Shown here: in pieces, positions 15,297 through 21,926 of the stretch
Numbering within the stretch: the stretch's first letter is position 1
Layout of the letters: each line of letters opens with the position of its first letter
From: Gammaproteobacteria bacterium
Lineage (GTDB): Bacteria; Pseudomonadota; Gammaproteobacteria; Xanthomonadales; Rhodanobacteraceae
Direction: 5' to 3'
Assembly (NCBI GenBank): GCA_004295005.1
Contig: SHNG01000107.1
Location: forward strand, 20,806-84,805
DNA length: 64,000 bases
Made by a program: the position numbers and the translations under genes
The notes under the pieces: model-generated
Told to the model about the DNA's origin: nothing
The model's database searches: none
Seen by the model: only the letters and a program-made list of their open reading frames with translations

Positions 15297-15776
15297 TCAA
15301 TGAGGACGCATGCCCGGCAAGCGCGAAATGCGCTTGAGCTCTCCCCACAGGGCGCGCCGGGCATCAACGCTGGACATCAGGTCCCGGGCGTGCGCACCGA
15401 TCACCCAATGCAGGCGACCCTGTTCCGTGGAATCCAAGCCTGCGCTCAGGTTGCGCGCAAGCGCGTCACCCAGCACCACCAGCCCCGCAGCCTGGCGCAG
15501 CGATTCCCGATCATCAGCCGTGCACAGACGCGAGGCGACGCCCAGCCATTTCAGCGCTGCCAGCAAGTCGCGGGACCAGCGCGCGCCTTCGCTGGCACCG
15601 ATCACGAGCACCTCGCGGACATCCTCCTTTCGATGCGGTGGGGAAGCCGGCAGTCCAGCGGAAACAGGTTCCACGGCCGCGCTCGCCGGGGCATGCATGG
15701 CCATGTTGGCTACCCGCGGCTCATAGACATCGATGCCCATTTCCGCCAGCAAGCGCAGGCTGCGCTCATCGAGCAT
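15297..15776 (-). CDS. Putative DNA polymerase III psi subunit (HolD-like)
   Basis: About 159 residues from ATG 15776. The N-terminus (DERSLRLLAEMGIDVYEPR) resembles the start of HolD, which binds the chi subunit, and the C-terminus (ARRALWGELKRISRL) resembles the last helix of E. coli HolD (ARAALWQQICTYE); the middle is poorly conserved. In E. coli holD lies directly before rimI, as here. HolD diverges fast, so the call depends on these two ends and the synteny. If right, it links single-strand binding protein and clamp loader at the replication fork. Otherwise it is a hypothetical protein. Confidence 0.6.
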   Translation of the reverse strand: MLDERSLRLLAEMGIDVYEPRVANMAMHAPASAAVEPVSAGLPASPPHRKEDVREVLVIGASEGARWSRDLLAALKWLGVASRLCTADDRESLRQAAGLVVLGDALARNLSAGLDSTEQGRLHWVIGAHARDLMSSVDARRALWGELKRISRLPGMRPH

Positions 15777-16380
15777 GTTCGCGCACCTCGCTTTGCAGCA
15801 GATCGCCGTGAAAACTGGCAAAGATCTCGTCGACAGCCACCGACAGCGCATCCACCGTGGAGATCAACCGGCTGTCCGCTGCGGGCGCGTCGGCGTGATA
15901 GATCTCGTCCAACTGCGGAGTTCCGTCAGGACGATCAACGCGCATGCGCAAGGCAACGCTGGCGATGGAACCGCCGTCGGGTGCCGGCACGCGCTCGAAT
16001 CGCAGGATGGTTCCGCTGATGCGCAAGGCCGCCTGGCTGGCCGGCAAGGCATCAATGACCAATGGGCTGATCGACGCGGCATCCAGCATCCGCTTCAGGC
16101 GTCTTTGCAATTGGCGCGTGGGCGGATCCGTCCACAACTGGTAATGGTACTGGCGCAGTTCACGTGCTTCCGGATCCAGCGCGTAGATCAAGGCACGGTC
16201 GGCGTACAGGCCATCCGCGGCAAACAGGTTGACCACGATCGGCGTGCGAAACGTGGCCGCCTCGCTGACCGGCAGCGCGGCCGGCTTGGCCATCTGGAAG
16301 AACGTGTGGTCCGGCGCGCCGGGCACGTTGCCACAACCCGCCAGAAGAAGCGCGAGAAACAACAGGAAAACCGCTTTCAT
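15766..16380 (-). CDS. ABC-type transport auxiliary lipoprotein (MCE-system partner)
   Basis: 204 residues starting with a lipoprotein signal (MKAVFLLFLALLLAGCG; lipobox LAGC). The rest is a soluble periplasmic domain of the PqiC/auxiliary-component type (RTPIVVNLFAADGLYADRALIYAL; late VDALSVAVDEIFASFHGDLL). Such lipoproteins anchor MCE-protein tunnels to the outer membrane. It overlaps the MlaD-like gene by 4 bp, so the two are translated together. It is the fourth component of the lipid transport set here; no MlaC-like periplasmic carrier is present. Confidence 0.85.
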   Translation of the reverse strand: MKAVFLLFLALLLAGCGNVPGAPDHTFFQMAKPAALPVSEAATFRTPIVVNLFAADGLYADRALIYALDPEARELRQYHYQLWTDPPTRQLQRRLKRMLDAASISPLVIDALPASQAALRISGTILRFERVPAPDGGSIASVALRMRVDRPDGTPQLDEIYHADAPAADSRLISTVDALSVAVDEIFASFHGDLLQSEVREHAR

Positions 16381-17303
16381 GGCGCGTCATCCTCCAGCTT
16401 GTCGGGCTCCGGCGAACGCAGCAACTGCCCCGGATTGCGCCGGATCTCGCGACTGAATTCATCGAGGTTGCGGGTGGCGGATTCAAGATGATGGGTGATC
16501 ACATCCATGCGACTGGAAAGGCTCGCCATGACCGTAGCCAGGTCGGTGGTGGCGCTGCGGATATCGCCACGGTTCTCACGCGCGATGTCGGCCAGCTCGC
16601 TGATGGCCTCGTCAACGGTCTTGCGTGTTTCACGCAGTTCGCCACTCAAGCCCTGCACATTGCCGAGGATGGCGGCCACCGCTGCCCGGTTCTCCGGTTT
16701 GAGCAGGTCATCCATCGCCGTCGATGCGCTGTTGAGCTTGTCGAGCAGGGCCTGGGCCTGGCCAAGGAGCTCCGGTGCGTTGTCATCCAGCGCACCGGTG
16801 ATGGATTCCACGCGCAAGGAAAGCTGCTTGACCATGGGCGTGATCTGGTCGCGGGTCAGGGTGGATACCTCGCCCGCCAATTCACTGAACGCGGCAAACA
16901 CATCCGCAGACTCGGCAGAACGCAGTTCCGCGCCCGCCGCGAGCATTTCCCGGCTGGCTCCTTCCTTGATGCCGATCGACATGTCGGCCAGCAGGCCACT
17001 GGATTGCAGGTGCGCCACGCTGTCCTTGGGAATCTGCCAGTCGCGCTTGACCACCAGGGTGACCTTGTAGCGGGTTCCCGCTGCGCTGCGCTGCGGCTGG
17101 ATCCCGCCGACATCACCGATGCGATAGCCCTCGTAGAAAACCGGCGCGCCGTAGCGCAGGCCGGTGACATTGCGGTACTGAACCAGATACTCGGAGGCCG
17201 GTCCGCTGCGTCCGGTGATGAGGGCCAGGCCAACCAGCAGGACCACCAGGGCCACGGCCACAACCGCACCGACAAGCGTGTAATTGACCGTGTCACGTTT
17301 CAC
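16377..17303 (-). CDS. MlaD-like MCE-domain protein
   Basis: Membrane-anchored periplasmic protein of the MCE family, whose hexamers form channels for phospholipid between the membranes. 308 residues: one N-terminal transmembrane helix (residues 8-30), an MCE domain (about 38-115, with YRNVTGLRYGAPVFYEGYRIG) and a long C-terminal helical segment rich in heptads (about 130-295), longer than in E. coli MlaD and closer to the needle type. It follows the ATPase gene by 51 bp and overlaps the lipoprotein gene. Confidence 0.9.
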   Translation of the reverse strand: MKRDTVNYTLVGAVVAVALVVLLVGLALITGRSGPASEYLVQYRNVTGLRYGAPVFYEGYRIGDVGGIQPQRSAAGTRYKVTLVVKRDWQIPKDSVAHLQSSGLLADMSIGIKEGASREMLAAGAELRSAESADVFAAFSELAGEVSTLTRDQITPMVKQLSLRVESITGALDDNAPELLGQAQALLDKLNSASTAMDDLLKPENRAAVAAILGNVQGLSGELRETRKTVDEAISELADIARENRGDIRSATTDLATVMASLSSRMDVITHHLESATRNLDEFSREIRRNPGQLLRSPEPDKLEDDAP

Positions 17304-17354
17304 GTCTTGATCCCCTCAATCCAAGGCCGATTGTATGCCGGATGCGCGGCCCGC

Positions 17355-18155
17355 TCATGCGTCTTCCCCGATCAGCCTTTGCAAGTACTGGTCGGCATCG
17401 ATCTGCACGTCACGCGGGCGCCGGTTGAGCAGATCCTGGATGCGTTCGTTGTCGGAAGCGCGCACCTCGGTGGTGCTGCCGGTCATCAACACCTTGCCCT
17501 GATCGAGCACGGTGATGCTGTCGGCGATCTTGAATGCACTTTCCAGCTCATGGGTGACCACCACGATGGTCATGCGCAAGGCATCGCGCAGGCGCAGGAT
17601 CAATTCATCCAGCTCTGCCGAAACCACGGGGTCCAGACCCGCCGATGGCTCATCAAAAAACAACAGGCGCGGGTCCATCACGATCGCACGCGCCAGCGCC
17701 GCGCGCTTGACCATGCCACCGGAAAGCTGGCTCGGCATGAGGTCCTGGAAACCGCCCAGATTGACCACTTCAAGCTTGATGCCGGTCATGATGCGGATGG
17801 TCTGTTCGTCCAGCCGGGTGTGTTCGCGCAAGGGCAAGGCCACGTTGTCGCCCACCGTCATTGAGGTCAGCAGGGCGCCGCCCTGGAACGAAACCCCGAT
17901 GCGTTTGCGCACATCGAGCTTTTCGCGCTCGCTGGCCCGGGCCATGTCCACGCCGAACAGCTTGACCGTGCCGCCCGCCGGCCGATTCAGACCGAGCATG
18001 TGCCTGAGCAAGGTGCTCTTGCCCGAGCCCGAGCCGCCCATGATCACGCGGATCTCGCCGGCCTTCACGCTGAAGTCGACGCCATGCAGGATGCGCCGAC
18101 GGCCGTACCAGGCCTCCAGCTGTTCGACTTCGATCAAGGGCGCGGGGGTGTTCAT
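17355..18155 (-). CDS. MlaF-like ABC transporter ATP-binding protein
   Basis: Cytoplasmic ATPase that drives the MCE lipid transporter. 266 residues with Walker A (GGSGSGKST), Q-loop region, signature (LSGGMVKRAALARAI) and Walker B (LLFFDEPSAGLDP), followed by the VVTHELESAF switch His. The long insertion before the signature (VGDNVALPLREHT) and the C-terminal STTEVRASDNERIQDLLN are typical of MlaF. It starts 3 nt after the stop of the permease gene. In E. coli MlaF is bound by the STAS protein MlaB; a STAS gene lies in this operon. Confidence 0.93.
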   Translation of the reverse strand: MNTPAPLIEVEQLEAWYGRRRILHGVDFSVKAGEIRVIMGGSGSGKSTLLRHMLGLNRPAGGTVKLFGVDMARASEREKLDVRKRIGVSFQGGALLTSMTVGDNVALPLREHTRLDEQTIRIMTGIKLEVVNLGGFQDLMPSQLSGGMVKRAALARAIVMDPRLLFFDEPSAGLDPVVSAELDELILRLRDALRMTIVVVTHELESAFKIADSITVLDQGKVLMTGSTTEVRASDNERIQDLLNRRPRDVQIDADQYLQRLIGEDA

Positions 18156-18158
18156 CGT

Positions 18159-18956
18159 TCAGCGATTGAGGAAGAACGAAAAGATCATGTCGGCAACAAT
18201 GATCCAGCAGATGGAAACCACCACGGCGCGCGTGGTCGCGCGACCCACGCCTTCCGCGCCCCCGGTGACCGAAAAACCCGTGCTGACTCCGATCAGGGTG
18301 ATCAGCAGGGCGAACACGGCGCTCTTGGCGATACCCTGCCCGACATCACCCGGCGTCAGCAGTGACATGGTCTGCAACATGTAGGCGGTGGGCGTGAGGT
18401 TGAGCGCAGGGGCGCTGTACAGCGCTGCCCCGAAGATCGCCACGGCATCGGCCAGAACGGTCAGCAAGGGCAGCATGACCAGCATCGCGATCAAGGCCGG
18501 CGCCACCAGGTAGCGCACCGGATCAATGCCGATCACCGCCAGCGCATCGACTTCCTGGGAAACGGTCATGGAACCGATGCGCGCGGCCAATGCTGATCCG
18601 GATCGCCCGGCGACGAGAATGGCGGTGATCAGGGCGCCGAACTCGCGGGTCACCGACTTGGCCACCGCGATCACCACCTGCGACTGCGCGCCGAATTCGC
18701 TGAGCGCGGCAACAAACTGGATGCCGAGCATGATGCCGACGGTAAACGCCAGCAGGCAGACGATGGGCAGGGCATCGACGCCGAACTGGCGCATCTGCTC
18801 GAACACCGCACGCAAGCGCAAGGGTTGGCCCGCCCGCCAGCCAAACAGGGTCAGGCGCAGCGCATCAACCAGCAACATCGCCGCATAGCCCATGCCCGCC
18901 AGGGCAGCAACGGCGCTGCGCCCCAATTGCGCCAATGGGCGCGTCAGGGCTTCCAC
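18159..18956 (-). CDS. MlaE-like ABC transporter permease
   Basis: Integral membrane permease of the MCE lipid transporter. 265 residues with about five hydrophobic helices. MlaE marks include FGVDALPIVCLLAFTVGIMLGIQ and REFGALITAILVAGRSGSALAARIGSMTVSQEVDAL, the coupling-helix segment contacted by the ATPase. GTG 18956 lies inside the end of the STAS gene (13-bp overlap), so translation is coupled. Together with the downstream ATPase and MCE gene it makes an Mla-type system. Confidence 0.93.
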   Translation of the reverse strand: MEALTRPLAQLGRSAVAALAGMGYAAMLLVDALRLTLFGWRAGQPLRLRAVFEQMRQFGVDALPIVCLLAFTVGIMLGIQFVAALSEFGAQSQVVIAVAKSVTREFGALITAILVAGRSGSALAARIGSMTVSQEVDALAVIGIDPVRYLVAPALIAMLVMLPLLTVLADAVAIFGAALYSAPALNLTPTAYMLQTMSLLTPGDVGQGIAKSAVFALLITLIGVSTGFSVTGGAEGVGRATTRAVVVSICWIIVADMIFSFFLNR

Positions 18957-19300
18957 ACCGGCACGCTCGCCGCTTCGGGAATGGCGCTGGCATCCGCCAC
19001 GATCGGCAACACCCGGTCCAGTCGCGCCAGCTCGAGTACCGAGCGCACCGCAGTGCTGACCGCGACCAGGGCAAATCCGCCCTGCTTCGTGCGCGCATTC
19101 TGGAAGCCTTCCACCAATGCGGCAATGCCCGATGAATCGATGTAGCTGACCTCGCTGAGCACCACACCGACCTTGCGACTGAGCTTCTGCGCATCGAGTA
19201 CGGCTTCACGCACCTGCTGTGACCAGGACAGATCCACTTCTCCGCGCAGCCGGATGAGGGTCAACTCGGCCGAACTCTCTTTCTCGATGCCGTTGTTCAT
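18944..19300 (-). CDS. STAS-domain protein (MlaB-like / anti-sigma-factor-antagonist type)
   Basis: 118 residues, a single STAS domain. It has the SpoIIAA-type phosphoacceptor motif SYIDSSGIAALVE with Ser56 after the Asp, as in anti-sigma-factor antagonists. Its position fits MlaB, the STAS subunit that binds MlaF: it overlaps the MlaE gene by 13 bp and the upstream kinase/phosphatase gene by 4 bp. It could therefore be both the regulatory subunit of the transporter and the substrate of the adjoining kinase and phosphatase domains. The family is seen in the sequence; the dual role is inferred. Confidence 0.88.
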   Translation of the reverse strand: MNNGIEKESSAELTLIRLRGEVDLSWSQQVREAVLDAQKLSRKVGVVLSEVSYIDSSGIAALVEGFQNARTKQGGFALVAVSTAVRSVLELARLDRVLPIVADASAIPEAASVPVWKP

Positions 19301-20994
19301 TCCCGTATTTCCCCAACATGGTCGCGATCACCGATGCGCTTGCGCATGGTCAGCCGGTTGCCGCACCCGCACGGCATACCGCACAAGCTCCATTCATCCA
19401 TGACCTGTTCCATCAACGCAACCCCCAAGCCACCGGAGCGGCATTCGCCCAGCGGCTTGGCCTTGATCGTTTCCGGATCCACCGCCGGCGCCGAGTCGGA
19501 AATCACGAATTCCAGTAACGCGCCATCGCGACTGACGCGCAGGTCGATATCGCCGCGTTGTCCTGGTCCATAGGCATGCCGGATGACGTTGCAACACGCC
19601 TCATCCACCACCAGGACCAGTTGGTCACGCAGCGCATTTTCCACACCTGCGTCATCCAGCGCGCTGCGCAAGCGGTTGCGGATGTCGCGCATCTGCTCGG
19701 CCTGTGCCGGGAAACGTCGCTTGAGCAGCACTTCCGGCCCCTGCGCCTGCATGCGCTCGACCAGCAGCAAGGTCGTATCGTCGACCAGGCGCAAGTGCTT
19801 CAATTCTGTAACCATGCCGCGCAGCCGCGGTTCGGCGGAGGCTCCCGCGTGGCGCTGGATCAAGGCGCGCACGCCTTCAGCTCCAATCGTCTGGCGCTGC
19901 GCATCGCGCACGTCGGTCAGGCCATCGGAAAAGCAGTAAAGGGAAGCCCCGCGCAGGTCGATGCGGTTGGCCTCGAAGCTCATGCCCGGCAGGATCCCGA
20001 GCGGTGCGCCACCGGACAGGTATTCGGTGAACTCGCCATCCTTGTAGCGCAGGGCGGGCGGGAATCCCGCCGCGGCAATTTCCACTTGCTCGCCATTGCG
20101 ATCGCACTGGCCAACCAGGGCGCAGACGAATCGACCTTCGAGGCTGGTCTGGCACAGCTCCTCGTTGACTCGCACCAGCCATTCGGAAGGTGAGGTGCCC
20201 TCCTTGCCGACCCAGCGCAACAAGGAGGCCGCACGCACCATCAGCAGCGCCGCATCCAGTCCCTTGCCGGAAACATCGCCAATGACGAAGCCGATGCGGC
20301 CATCGGCCAGGTCGAAGTAATCGTAGAAATCCCCCGAGATCTCGTGTGCGGGAAGATTCATGCCGAGCAGGGGAAAGCCGTCACGACGGCGCTTGGGCAG
20401 CAGCGACTTCTGCATGCGCCGGGCAAGGTCGAATTCGCGCTTCATGCGCGCCTGCTGGACCAGTTCGTGCGCCATGCGCGCATTGTTGATGGCCAGCGAA
20501 GTCGGTGCGGCAACCAGGCGCAGGATCTCTGCATCCTCGGCGCTGAAGGTGCCGCCACTGCGCTTGTTGACCACTTCCAGCGCGCCGATCGGACCATTGG
20601 CGGTGGACAGCGGAGCACACAGCAAGCTGCGCGTGATGAAGCCGGTATCGCTGTCGTTGCTGCGATCCACGCGTGCATCACTGGCGGCATCAGCCACGAT
20701 CTGGCTGGCATTCTCGGCGACGCAACGGCCGACGACGCCTTGCCCGAGCGGAATGCGCAGTCCGGCAATATCGATTGGCCCCACGCACACGCGGCATTCC
20801 AGCATGCCTTCGCCTTCGGCGAGCAGGAACAGCGAGGCAGCCTCGGCATCCATGAATTCGGCAATGCGCTTGACCGCCTCGCTCAGGGTCTGTCGCAAGT
20901 CCAGGGAGACGGCAAGGGCGGCGGAAAGATCAGCCAGAAAGACCAGGGCCCGCGCTTCGCTGTGGGCAGCCAGGCGAGCTTGCACGGCTGCCAT
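19297..20994 (-). CDS. GAF / PP2C-type phosphatase / HATPase partner-switching protein
   Basis: 565 residues with three domains. A GAF sensor (about 15-170) comes first. A SpoIIE/RsbU-like PP2C phosphatase (about 205-405) has all its metal-binding acidic residues in SGDFYDYFDL, GDVSGKGLDAALLM, FSDGLTD and DDTTLLLV. An RsbW-like HATPase kinase domain (about 425-555) has the N-box VDEACCNVIRHAYG and the G2 loop GGLGVALMEQV; its G1 box reads SDSAPAVDP, with Ala where Gly is usual. RsbW-type kinases phosphorylate STAS proteins and RsbU-type phosphatases reverse this; here both are on one chain and the STAS gene overlaps by 4 bp. No sigma factor is nearby. Confidence 0.92.
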   Translation of the reverse strand: MAAVQARLAAHSEARALVFLADLSAALAVSLDLRQTLSEAVKRIAEFMDAEAASLFLLAEGEGMLECRVCVGPIDIAGLRIPLGQGVVGRCVAENASQIVADAASDARVDRSNDSDTGFITRSLLCAPLSTANGPIGALEVVNKRSGGTFSAEDAEILRLVAAPTSLAINNARMAHELVQQARMKREFDLARRMQKSLLPKRRRDGFPLLGMNLPAHEISGDFYDYFDLADGRIGFVIGDVSGKGLDAALLMVRAASLLRWVGKEGTSPSEWLVRVNEELCQTSLEGRFVCALVGQCDRNGEQVEIAAAGFPPALRYKDGEFTEYLSGGAPLGILPGMSFEANRIDLRGASLYCFSDGLTDVRDAQRQTIGAEGVRALIQRHAGASAEPRLRGMVTELKHLRLVDDTTLLLVERMQAQGPEVLLKRRFPAQAEQMRDIRNRLRSALDDAGVENALRDQLVLVVDEACCNVIRHAYGPGQRGDIDLRVSRDGALLEFVISDSAPAVDPETIKAKPLGECRSGGLGVALMEQVMDEWSLCGMPCGCGNRLTMRKRIGDRDHVGEIRE

Positions 20995-20998
20995 CTGT

Positions 20999-21790
20999 CT
21001 ACTCCTCGCCGCGCTCGTTGCCGCGCAGGGCGCGTTTTTCGCGTGAGCGGCGCAATCCCCACAGCGTCATCACCGGTCCGGAAAGCAGGTACAGCACGCC
21101 AATCGCAAACAGCACCCGCGGTGGATCGATGACCAGGGCAACAATGATCAGCAGGGCTGCGGGAATCCACACAAACGGCACCTGGTCCGAACCCGGCCAG
21201 GATTTGAAACTGAAATAGCGGAAGTTGCTGACCATCAGCAGGCCGGCCAGCACCGCGACGAACGGGGTGAAGAACTGGACATCGATGCCGCTCAGGTCGA
21301 ACTTCTCGATGGTCCATACGAAGGCCATGCAGAATCCCGCGGCGGCCGGGCTTGCCAGTCCCTGGAAGTAGCGCTTGTCGGCCACGCCGACCTGGGTGTT
21401 GAAACGGGCCAGGCGCATGGCGGCACAAGCCGCGTAAATGAAGGCAGCCGACCAGCCGGCCTTGCCCCAAAGGGATCCATACTCGGTCAAGGACGACAGT
21501 GACCAGGTGTACATGACCAGGGCCGGGGCGAGGCCAAAGCTCACCAGATCCGAAAGGGAGTCGTACTGAACGCCAAAATCGCTCTGCGTGCCGGTGAGCC
21601 GGGCCACTCGGCCATCAAGGCCATCGAGGATGCCGGCGATGAAAACGGCCAGGGCCGCCTCGGAATAGCGCCCACCAATGGAAGCCACGATTGCGTAGAA
21701 ACCCGCAAACATGGCGGCGGTGGTGAACAGGTTGGGCAGCAGGTAGATACCGCGGGGCCGCTTGCGTGCTGGAGTGGGCACTTCTGCCAT
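20999..21790 (-). CDS. pssA: CDP-diacylglycerol-serine O-phosphatidyltransferase
   Basis: Integral membrane enzyme that makes phosphatidylserine, the precursor of phosphatidylethanolamine. About 263 residues from ATG 21790 (a TTG at 21805 would add five). The CDP-alcohol phosphatidyltransferase motif is complete: DGLDGRVARLTGTQSDFG followed by YDSLSD, and about seven hydrophobic helices follow. The next gene starts 4 nt after the stop, so phosphatidylserine synthesis heads the operon that also encodes the partner-switching module and lipid transporter. Confidence 0.94.
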   Translation of the reverse strand: MAEVPTPARKRPRGIYLLPNLFTTAAMFAGFYAIVASIGGRYSEAALAVFIAGILDGLDGRVARLTGTQSDFGVQYDSLSDLVSFGLAPALVMYTWSLSSLTEYGSLWGKAGWSAAFIYAACAAMRLARFNTQVGVADKRYFQGLASPAAAGFCMAFVWTIEKFDLSGIDVQFFTPFVAVLAGLLMVSNFRYFSFKSWPGSDQVPFVWIPAALLIIVALVIDPPRVLFAIGVLYLLSGPVMTLWGLRRSREKRALRGNERGEE

Positions 21791-21926
21791 CGTGGATGCC
21801 GCCAAAAATTGTCTGGGACCAGTTTAACCGGATCGTGTTGGCCGCCGCGCTGGGCGGATCCGTTCCGGCGAGGCCGGGGAGCTGCGATCAAAGTCAGGCA
21901 AAATATGCGAATTCTTCGCGAAGTGC

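Follow-up and report, generated by a model that had tools for sequence, protein, structure and literature searches.

Does a phosphorylation switch control the lipid transporter whose genes lie beside it? The question is raised by a locus in a 64,000-nucleotide stretch of DNA (hereafter the window; GenBank assembly GCA_004295005.1, contig SHNG01000107.1, positions 20,806 to 84,805) from a gammaproteobacterium of the Rhodanobacteraceae. Seven co-directional genes on its minus strand (21805-15766) encode a PssA-like enzyme, a GAF-PP2C-HATPase protein (hereafter GPH), a STAS protein, MlaE, MlaF, MlaD and a PqiC-like lipoprotein. The presence of a kinase, a phosphatase and a STAS protein beside lipid-transport genes suggests that inter-membrane lipid traffic is switched by phosphorylation. 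Judging from sequence comparisons, we consider it likely that phosphorylation of the STAS protein by the linked kinase controls the MCE lipid transporter.

The proposed circuit would be a partner switch whose output is an MCE lipid ATP-binding cassette (ABC) transporter and not a sigma factor. The STAS protein would take the role of MlaB: unphosphorylated, it would bind MlaF via the helical face around Ser56, against the C-terminal tail of MlaF, and would keep MlaF and MlaE assembled and active. Phosphorylation of Ser56 by the HATPase domain would block MlaF binding and lower transport, comparable to the T52E substitution of Escherichia coli MlaB, and the HATPase domain may also itself hold the unphosphorylated STAS protein. 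The PP2C domain, under the GAF domain or, in other lineages, an HDOD domain, would strip the phosphate and restore transport; the sign of control could also be the opposite. Within this circuit, we infer the phosphorylation of Ser56 and its sign, STAS-MlaF binding, the direction of transport and the signal. In the sections used here of two reports on the E. coli transporter (PMC7367683, PMC5016091), MlaB is required for the association of MlaF with the transporter, MlaB T52E lowers MlaF pull-down, MlaF Tyr261 and Leu265 pack between MlaB and MlaF, and MlaB phosphorylation is raised as an open hypothesis by both groups.

Conservation of the gene order was examined at three taxonomic levels. Among 200 genomes of the order Lysobacterales searched, 129 gave matches; the 57 strongest (>300 bits, own genome included) were fetched with their surroundings, 80 named loci (the best 80 of 403) were added and 32 duplicates were removed, leaving 105 distinct loci. 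STAS and MlaE genes follow the kinase/phosphatase in 75 of these. All nine markers were found in 52 of the 75 and all but pssA in 3, while MlaD and the lipoprotein were unseen in 15 and MlaF, MlaD and the lipoprotein in 5, some of the loci with unseen markers being contig ends; four searched genomes of the five MlaF-less loci (G011, G021, G030 and G066) encode a 73-76% identical MlaF elsewhere. The distance from the STAS stop to the MlaE start, as chosen by the script, is at most 20 nucleotides (nt) in 60/75. In 12/75, the HATPase is out of frame with PP2C, the kinase having a gene of its own ahead of STAS; locus L066, which has no STAS gene, was flagged as well because its match contains a stop. 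A further 27 loci hold pssA and GPH only (L070 being cut at the HATPase end), and three are incomplete (L089 and L166 cut by contig ends, L088 without a HATPase match in the search).

At the class level, a STAS profile (A2) was run against 369 gammaproteobacterial genomes; 58 of them scored at least 109 bits, after which scores drop to 73 bits or less. The class set comprises 57 loci from beyond the order, namely the 56 remaining strong ones and that of genome G268 (73.5 bits). In 56 of the 57, the gene immediately upstream of STAS encodes an RsbW-like HATPase, the exception (L236) starting at a contig end. A same-strand PP2C gene is present upstream in 49, and in 52 the gene that directly follows STAS is MlaE or MlaF; a second script counted 55, 48 and 51, respectively, L271 having been referenced to a second, weak STAS gene. 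The pssA gene is part of the run in one of the 57 (L220). Because this gene order recurs across dozens of families, the run in the window is beyond chance.

The proteins themselves also occur together. With a presence threshold of E <=1e-75, the MlaF type of the window was found in 60/369 genomes: 56 genomes hold both it and the STAS family, 2 the STAS family only, 4 this MlaF only and 307 neither, and the joint occurrences span 32 families. In the two STAS-only genomes, the contig ends in MlaE (G412) or the top MlaF scores 211 bits (G510). Two of the MlaF-only genomes are accounted for by a run whose first gene, MlaE, is truncated by the contig end (G210) and by a partial STAS (G268).

Inputs and transporters vary around this core, which speaks for a function. 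Among 50 PP2C proteins of the class set (domain >200 bits), 21 carry a GAF domain and 29 another N-terminus, which is HDOD in 5/5 of those scanned and HDOD-like by eye in the rest. Two loci (L231, L240) have the order PP2C (HDOD-like by eye), HATPase, STAS, MlaF, MlaE, MlaD, MlaA, MlaC, and a third (L266) the order GAF-PP2C, HATPase, STAS, MlaE, MlaD, MlaA, MlaC, with MlaF on the opposite strand; MlaA and MlaC were confirmed with Pfam in all three. No STAS-like open reading frame (ORF) follows MlaC in these stretches (1.4 kb being left in L231), mlaB elsewhere in the genomes not having been searched. Since MlaA and MlaC are part of these runs, the STAS protein may replace MlaB on canonical Mla systems also.

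At the phylum level, the STAS profile matched 72/299 genomes at E <=1e-12, and 17 loci were fetched. L340 and L342, both outside the class, encode kinase, STAS, MlaE, MlaF, MlaD and lipoprotein. L341 encodes GAF-PP2C-HATPase-STAS with no MCE gene within the remaining 1.4 kb; the class member L343 has HATPase-STAS-MlaF-MlaE-MlaD. In family f210, also outside the class, HATPase lies beside STAS in 8/9 loci (L331-L338, not L350). On the whole, we lean towards the view that phospho-gated lipid transporters form an old class, widespread in Gammaproteobacteria and other classes of the phylum. In this class, a free SpoIIAA-like STAS protein would replace MlaB on Mpc-type and canonical (MlaA, MlaC) systems, and the kinase and phosphatase dedicated to it, whose GAF or HDOD inputs are exchangeable, would set outer-membrane lipid traffic directly, without transcription.

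The proximity that the first-pass annotation had proposed to check is thus kept in relatives, and comparative evidence supports its idea that a phospho-switched STAS protein may act on the transporter. Of the linkage of both enzymes to STAS, the kinase part is confirmed nearly throughout and the phosphatase part is looser. The GAF input, correct for the window, does not extend to other lineages with HDOD, and of its "phospholipid synthesis and transport operon" the transport part stands, while pssA falls away as conserved core.

Some neighbouring arrangements were recorded along the way. At L222, L225 and L229, where MCE genes are missing, kinase-STAS adjoins FHA-like and PPM-type phosphatase-like genes (Pfam-confirmed for L225 only), and at L347 (genome G264) FHA-like and PPM-type phosphatase-like genes lie beside an MCE operon without kinase-STAS; the FHA/PPM neighbours of both halves give the impression of an ancestral cluster that has come apart. 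In two f210 loci, the position of MlaF, flanked by MlaE and MlaD, is taken by a protein of 224-225 amino acids (L332:4101-4778, L334:10710-11384); at E 0.001 it has no match in Pfam, ABC_tran included, and a Walker A motif was unseen by eye. Both runs end in HATPase, STAS and a gene that, going by its sequence, we take to be ubiD-like. No MlaE was seen at L339, L344, L345 and L346, with STAS scores of 50-71 bits; at L339 and L345, the distant STAS genes adjoin HATPase genes and the stretch shows no MCE gene next to them, and these are probably other partner switches, usable as an outgroup.

What kind of STAS protein, then, sits beside the transporter? The window protein (P0003, 118 amino acids, 18944-19300, minus strand) occupies the genomic place of MlaB. 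It fails the curated MlaB model NF033618 (23 bits for a cut-off of 90; E. coli MlaB scores 127) and passes TIGR00377, anti-sigma-factor antagonist (67 bits, cut-off 53.45), and three scanned relatives score alike. Two further sets are encoded in the same genome: a canonical one resembling mlaFEDCB on contig C171, truncated where the contig ends, and one on contig C50 that combines a STAS-permease fusion with MlaF, MlaD and a lipoprotein-like ORF. The C171 protein in MlaB's position also misses the MlaB model, which is therefore a narrow test that alone cannot separate both kinds. The predicted structure (mean pLDDT, predicted local distance difference test, of 86.5; 41 sequences) is matched best by SpoIIAA from its complex with SpoIIAB (1.4e-9) and by RsbV from that with RsbW (6.8e-9), compared with 5e-5 to 5e-4 for MlaB chains of solved Mla complexes. 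Going by sequence and modelled fold, the window protein is a STAS of the phosphorylatable type in MlaB's genomic seat. Profile scans of 215 loci revealed no STAS fusion with HATPase, MlaE or MlaF.

The residues required by the proposed switch are intact. Ser56 of the STAS protein (codon 19133-19135, minus strand), the predicted phosphoacceptor, follows Asp55 in a DSSG motif and aligns with E. coli MlaB Thr52. Asp55-Ser56-Ser57-Gly58 is invariant in 75/75 order loci, and DSSG was found in 71/71 class and Marinicella loci with STAS >100 bits (57 by strict pattern, 14 from printed sequences), a count that leaves out the partial L276 and weaker families. Kinase residues Glu465 and Asn469 and phosphatase residues Asp222, 240, 357, 405 and 406 are invariant in the same 14 aligned GPH orthologues; in the class set, the kinase E-N motif is present in 56/56 (>90 bits) and the PP2C aspartate motifs in 50/50 (domains >200 bits). 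On the transporter side, Tyr and Leu of the MlaF C-terminal tail (Y257-LQR-L261-I262, 17370-17387, minus strand) align with E. coli MlaF Tyr261 and Leu265, and the Y-x3-L pattern is kept in 66/66 order loci (the truncated L113 left out) and 64/64 class and Marinicella loci (>380 bits). The Tyr is absent from the tail of the own-genome MlaF paralogue that belongs to the fused-STAS set.

Several observations weigh against phospho-control of the transporter. The Fisher P of 8e-59 for the co-occurrence of STAS and MlaF takes no account of phylogeny, and G264 and G432, where the STAS family is missing although the MlaF type is present, are true exceptions. These two genomes were checked for loss of the MlaF tail in the absence of STAS, and none was found, their tails being F-x3-L and Y-x3-L; the tail therefore supports docking and does not prove it. 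No same-strand upstream PP2C gene is present in eight of the 57 class loci (L220, L222, L226, L229, L236, L238, L242 and L247), with a PP2C gene nearby on the opposite strand in L238 and L247. STAS lacks a directly following MCE gene in five (L222, L225, L229, L236 and L255), whose genomes encode MlaE elsewhere in 5/5 and MlaF (>300 bits) in 4/5. In family f210, MlaE and MlaD lie upstream in 5/9 loci fetched (L332, L334, L336, L337 and L350). Lastly, E. coli MlaB T52A still binds MlaF but abolishes ATPase activity, according to the same parts of the two reports (PMC7367683, PMC5016091), and this residue may therefore act otherwise than by phosphorylation.

The last point also favours the rival explanation that the STAS protein is a constitutive, MlaB-like structural subunit in which Ser56 serves ATPase function, the kinase/phosphatase acting on another STAS protein. 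A Ser or Thr is found at the same aligned site in the canonical (C171: Ser) and fused STAS proteins of the own genome, and another PP2C gene lies beside a STAS-like gene there (contig C151). We nevertheless give this explanation little credence, in view of the kinase-STAS adjacency across the class, the 4 nt by which the kinase and STAS genes of the window overlap and a STAS protein that is nearer to SpoIIAA/RsbV than to MlaB in both sequence and fold.

Additional evidence comes from family f9 (named members Marinicella), to which all 27 pssA-only loci belong and in which the enzyme and STAS genes lie apart. In 15 of 16 f9 genomes searched, the STAS family (118-131 bits) is encoded elsewhere, directly before the sole MlaE passing the Pfam cut-off, and the STAS-MlaE runs continue with MlaF, MlaD and lipoprotein in 15/15. 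The sixteenth genome (G019) has a 31-bit STAS match only and no GPH match. With the kinase by pssA and STAS by MlaE, the enzyme and its presumed substrate are therefore both kept despite the separation of their genes, and STAS stays with the transporter.

This arrangement bears on a second rival explanation, in which the wiring of anti-sigma switches is reversed and the transporter is the sensor: MlaF occupancy would take up or release the STAS protein and thereby free the HATPase for a sigma factor or other regulator. The score of the STAS protein as an anti-sigma-factor antagonist and the resemblance of the HATPase to RsbW/SpoIIAB speak for it. We regard it as quite unlikely, given that no linked sigma factor was seen among the ORF lists read by eye (no genome-wide or profile search for sigma factors having been made) and that the Marinicella-family STAS gene is in the transporter run although the kinase gene is elsewhere.

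A third rival makes phospholipid synthesis (through PssA), or some other, unlinked target, the output of the trio and the transporter a mere neighbour. It is improbable: although 101/105 Lysobacterales loci have a same-strand pssA no more than 9 kb from PP2C and the Marinicella-family enzyme stays by pssA and not by the transporter, kinase-STAS-MCE persists across the class loci, the protein presumed to be switched, STAS, accompanies MlaE in the Marinicella family, and PssA linkage was rejected as the core on account of the single class locus with pssA in its run.

The seven genes of the window had been annotated in the first pass as a tight run with an intact DSSG motif, and all are present, on the minus strand, within 15766-21790, the motif included. 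The pssA-like CDP-alcohol phosphatidyltransferase gene (P0001, 20999-21805; TTG start at 21805, ATG at 21790) encodes a protein that scores 69.9 bits for CDP-OH_P_transf and 103.3 bits for TIGR00473 (pssA), slightly below the cut-off of 107. GPH (P0002, 565 amino acids, 19297-20994), a putative sensor, phosphatase and RsbW-like kinase in a single chain, matches GAF_2 (59.3 bits), SpoIIE (135.7) and HATPase_c_2 (89.4); its nearest named locus, among the best 80 of 403, is that of a Dokdonella metagenome-assembled genome, with 97% identity, which puts the source genome in or close to Dokdonella. The STAS protein scores 56.6 bits in Pfam. It is followed by the MlaE-type permease (P0004, 18159-18956, 231.8 bits), the MlaF-type ATPase (P0005, 17355-18155; ABC_tran 104 bits, top NCBIfam match PRK11831 (MlaF) with 201 bits, under the cut-off of 441), the MlaD/MCE protein with a long C-terminal region (P0006, 308 amino acids, 16377-17303, 44.7 bits) and the PqiC-like ABC-type transport auxiliary lipoprotein (P0007, 15766-16380; ABC_trans_aux 39.1 bits). 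The last four constitute an Mpc-type gene set in a single run. Most joints are overlaps or gaps of a few bases, as described in the first pass: a gap of 4 nt between pssA and GPH, overlaps of 4 nt between GPH and STAS and 13 nt between STAS and MlaE, a gap of 3 nt between MlaE and MlaF and an overlap of 4 nt between MlaD and the lipoprotein; the description fails for MlaF-MlaD, whose gap of 51 nt is the widest.

Beyond the lipoprotein gene, a 184-amino-acid ORF without Pfam match (15851-15297) overlaps its end and is followed by a rimI-like ORF (named by eye); the operon transcript may extend to include the former (15297-15851). A scan for promoters and terminators on both strands was uninformative (1 promoter-like site for 1.3 expected, 10 terminator-like sites for 4.6). 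A role of the GAF domain as a cyclic-nucleotide sensor was considered and rejected: the top PDB match is the GAF region of phosphodiesterase 2A and an N-K...F...D pattern was seen by eye; patterns of this type are common among GAF domains, and no ligand is claimed. Elsewhere in the genome, the 4.9-kb contig C151 (L092) encodes a second PP2C protein with an FHA-like start (by eye) and, beside it on the opposite strand, the STAS-like gene mentioned above; no transporter is linked to the pair on this contig.

A linked kinase and phosphatase for a STAS protein in MlaB's position make the question of MlaB phosphorylation directly testable. If true, the proposed circuit would provide fast post-translational control of outer-membrane lipid homeostasis and an example of an ABC transporter under the control of partner switching, and its GAF and HDOD inputs would be handles for finding the signals that set lipid traffic. 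In the open-licence PubMed Central (PMC) literature, as covered by titles and the starts of abstracts, we found no partner switch on an MCE or other ABC transporter, nor any text joining MlaB or MCE with such a kinase or phosphatase; absence from print is not thereby shown.

How does the locus compare with known systems? With E. coli MlaFEDB it shares the MCE, MlaE and MlaF subunits, the Y-x3-L tail of MlaF, a Ser or Thr where the two STAS sequences align and, by prediction here, a small STAS protein on MlaF (parts of PMC7367683 and PMC5016091). It differs in that the annotated neighbours of E. coli mla include neither a PP2C nor an RsbW-like kinase, and in that E. coli MlaB has another family score and, in the part of the report used (PMC7367683), lacks the additional strand and helix with which SpoIIAA continues at its C-terminus. 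The Brucella Mpc (Mla-Pqi chimeric) system, as described in the section drawn on (PMC12436622), likewise combines MlaE, MlaF, a long MlaD and a PqiC-like lipoprotein; its STAS domain is fused to the permease N-terminus, whereas that of the window is free and has its own kinase and phosphatase genes. The RsbU/RsbV/RsbW and SpoIIE/SpoIIAA/SpoIIAB switches share the PP2C phosphatase, the HATPase kinase and a STAS protein with an acceptor serine, and provide the closest STAS folds; they differ from the window locus, where no linked sigma factor was seen and the predicted partner is the ATPase of an ABC transporter.

Gammaproteobacteria have further switches of this kind, in which SiaC binds SiaD, and HsbA binds FlgM or HsbD. 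Extracts of the reports on SiaABC-SiaD and HsbR-HsbA of Pseudomonas and SypE-SypA of Vibrio fischeri describe kinase/phosphatase control of a STAS-like protein, as proposed here (PMC7647112, PMC8256260, PMC6482189, PMC5085249). The outputs differ: biofilm control through the diguanylate cyclase SiaD for SiaABC (PMC7647112), RpoS regulation for HsbR-HsbA and an unknown SypA target for SypE-SypA (PMC8256260), none of these outputs being described in the extracts as a transporter. Partner switches with non-sigma outputs are thus already known, and what appears to be new at this locus is the wiring of such a switch to an MCE lipid ABC transporter, a combination of two known kinds of system.

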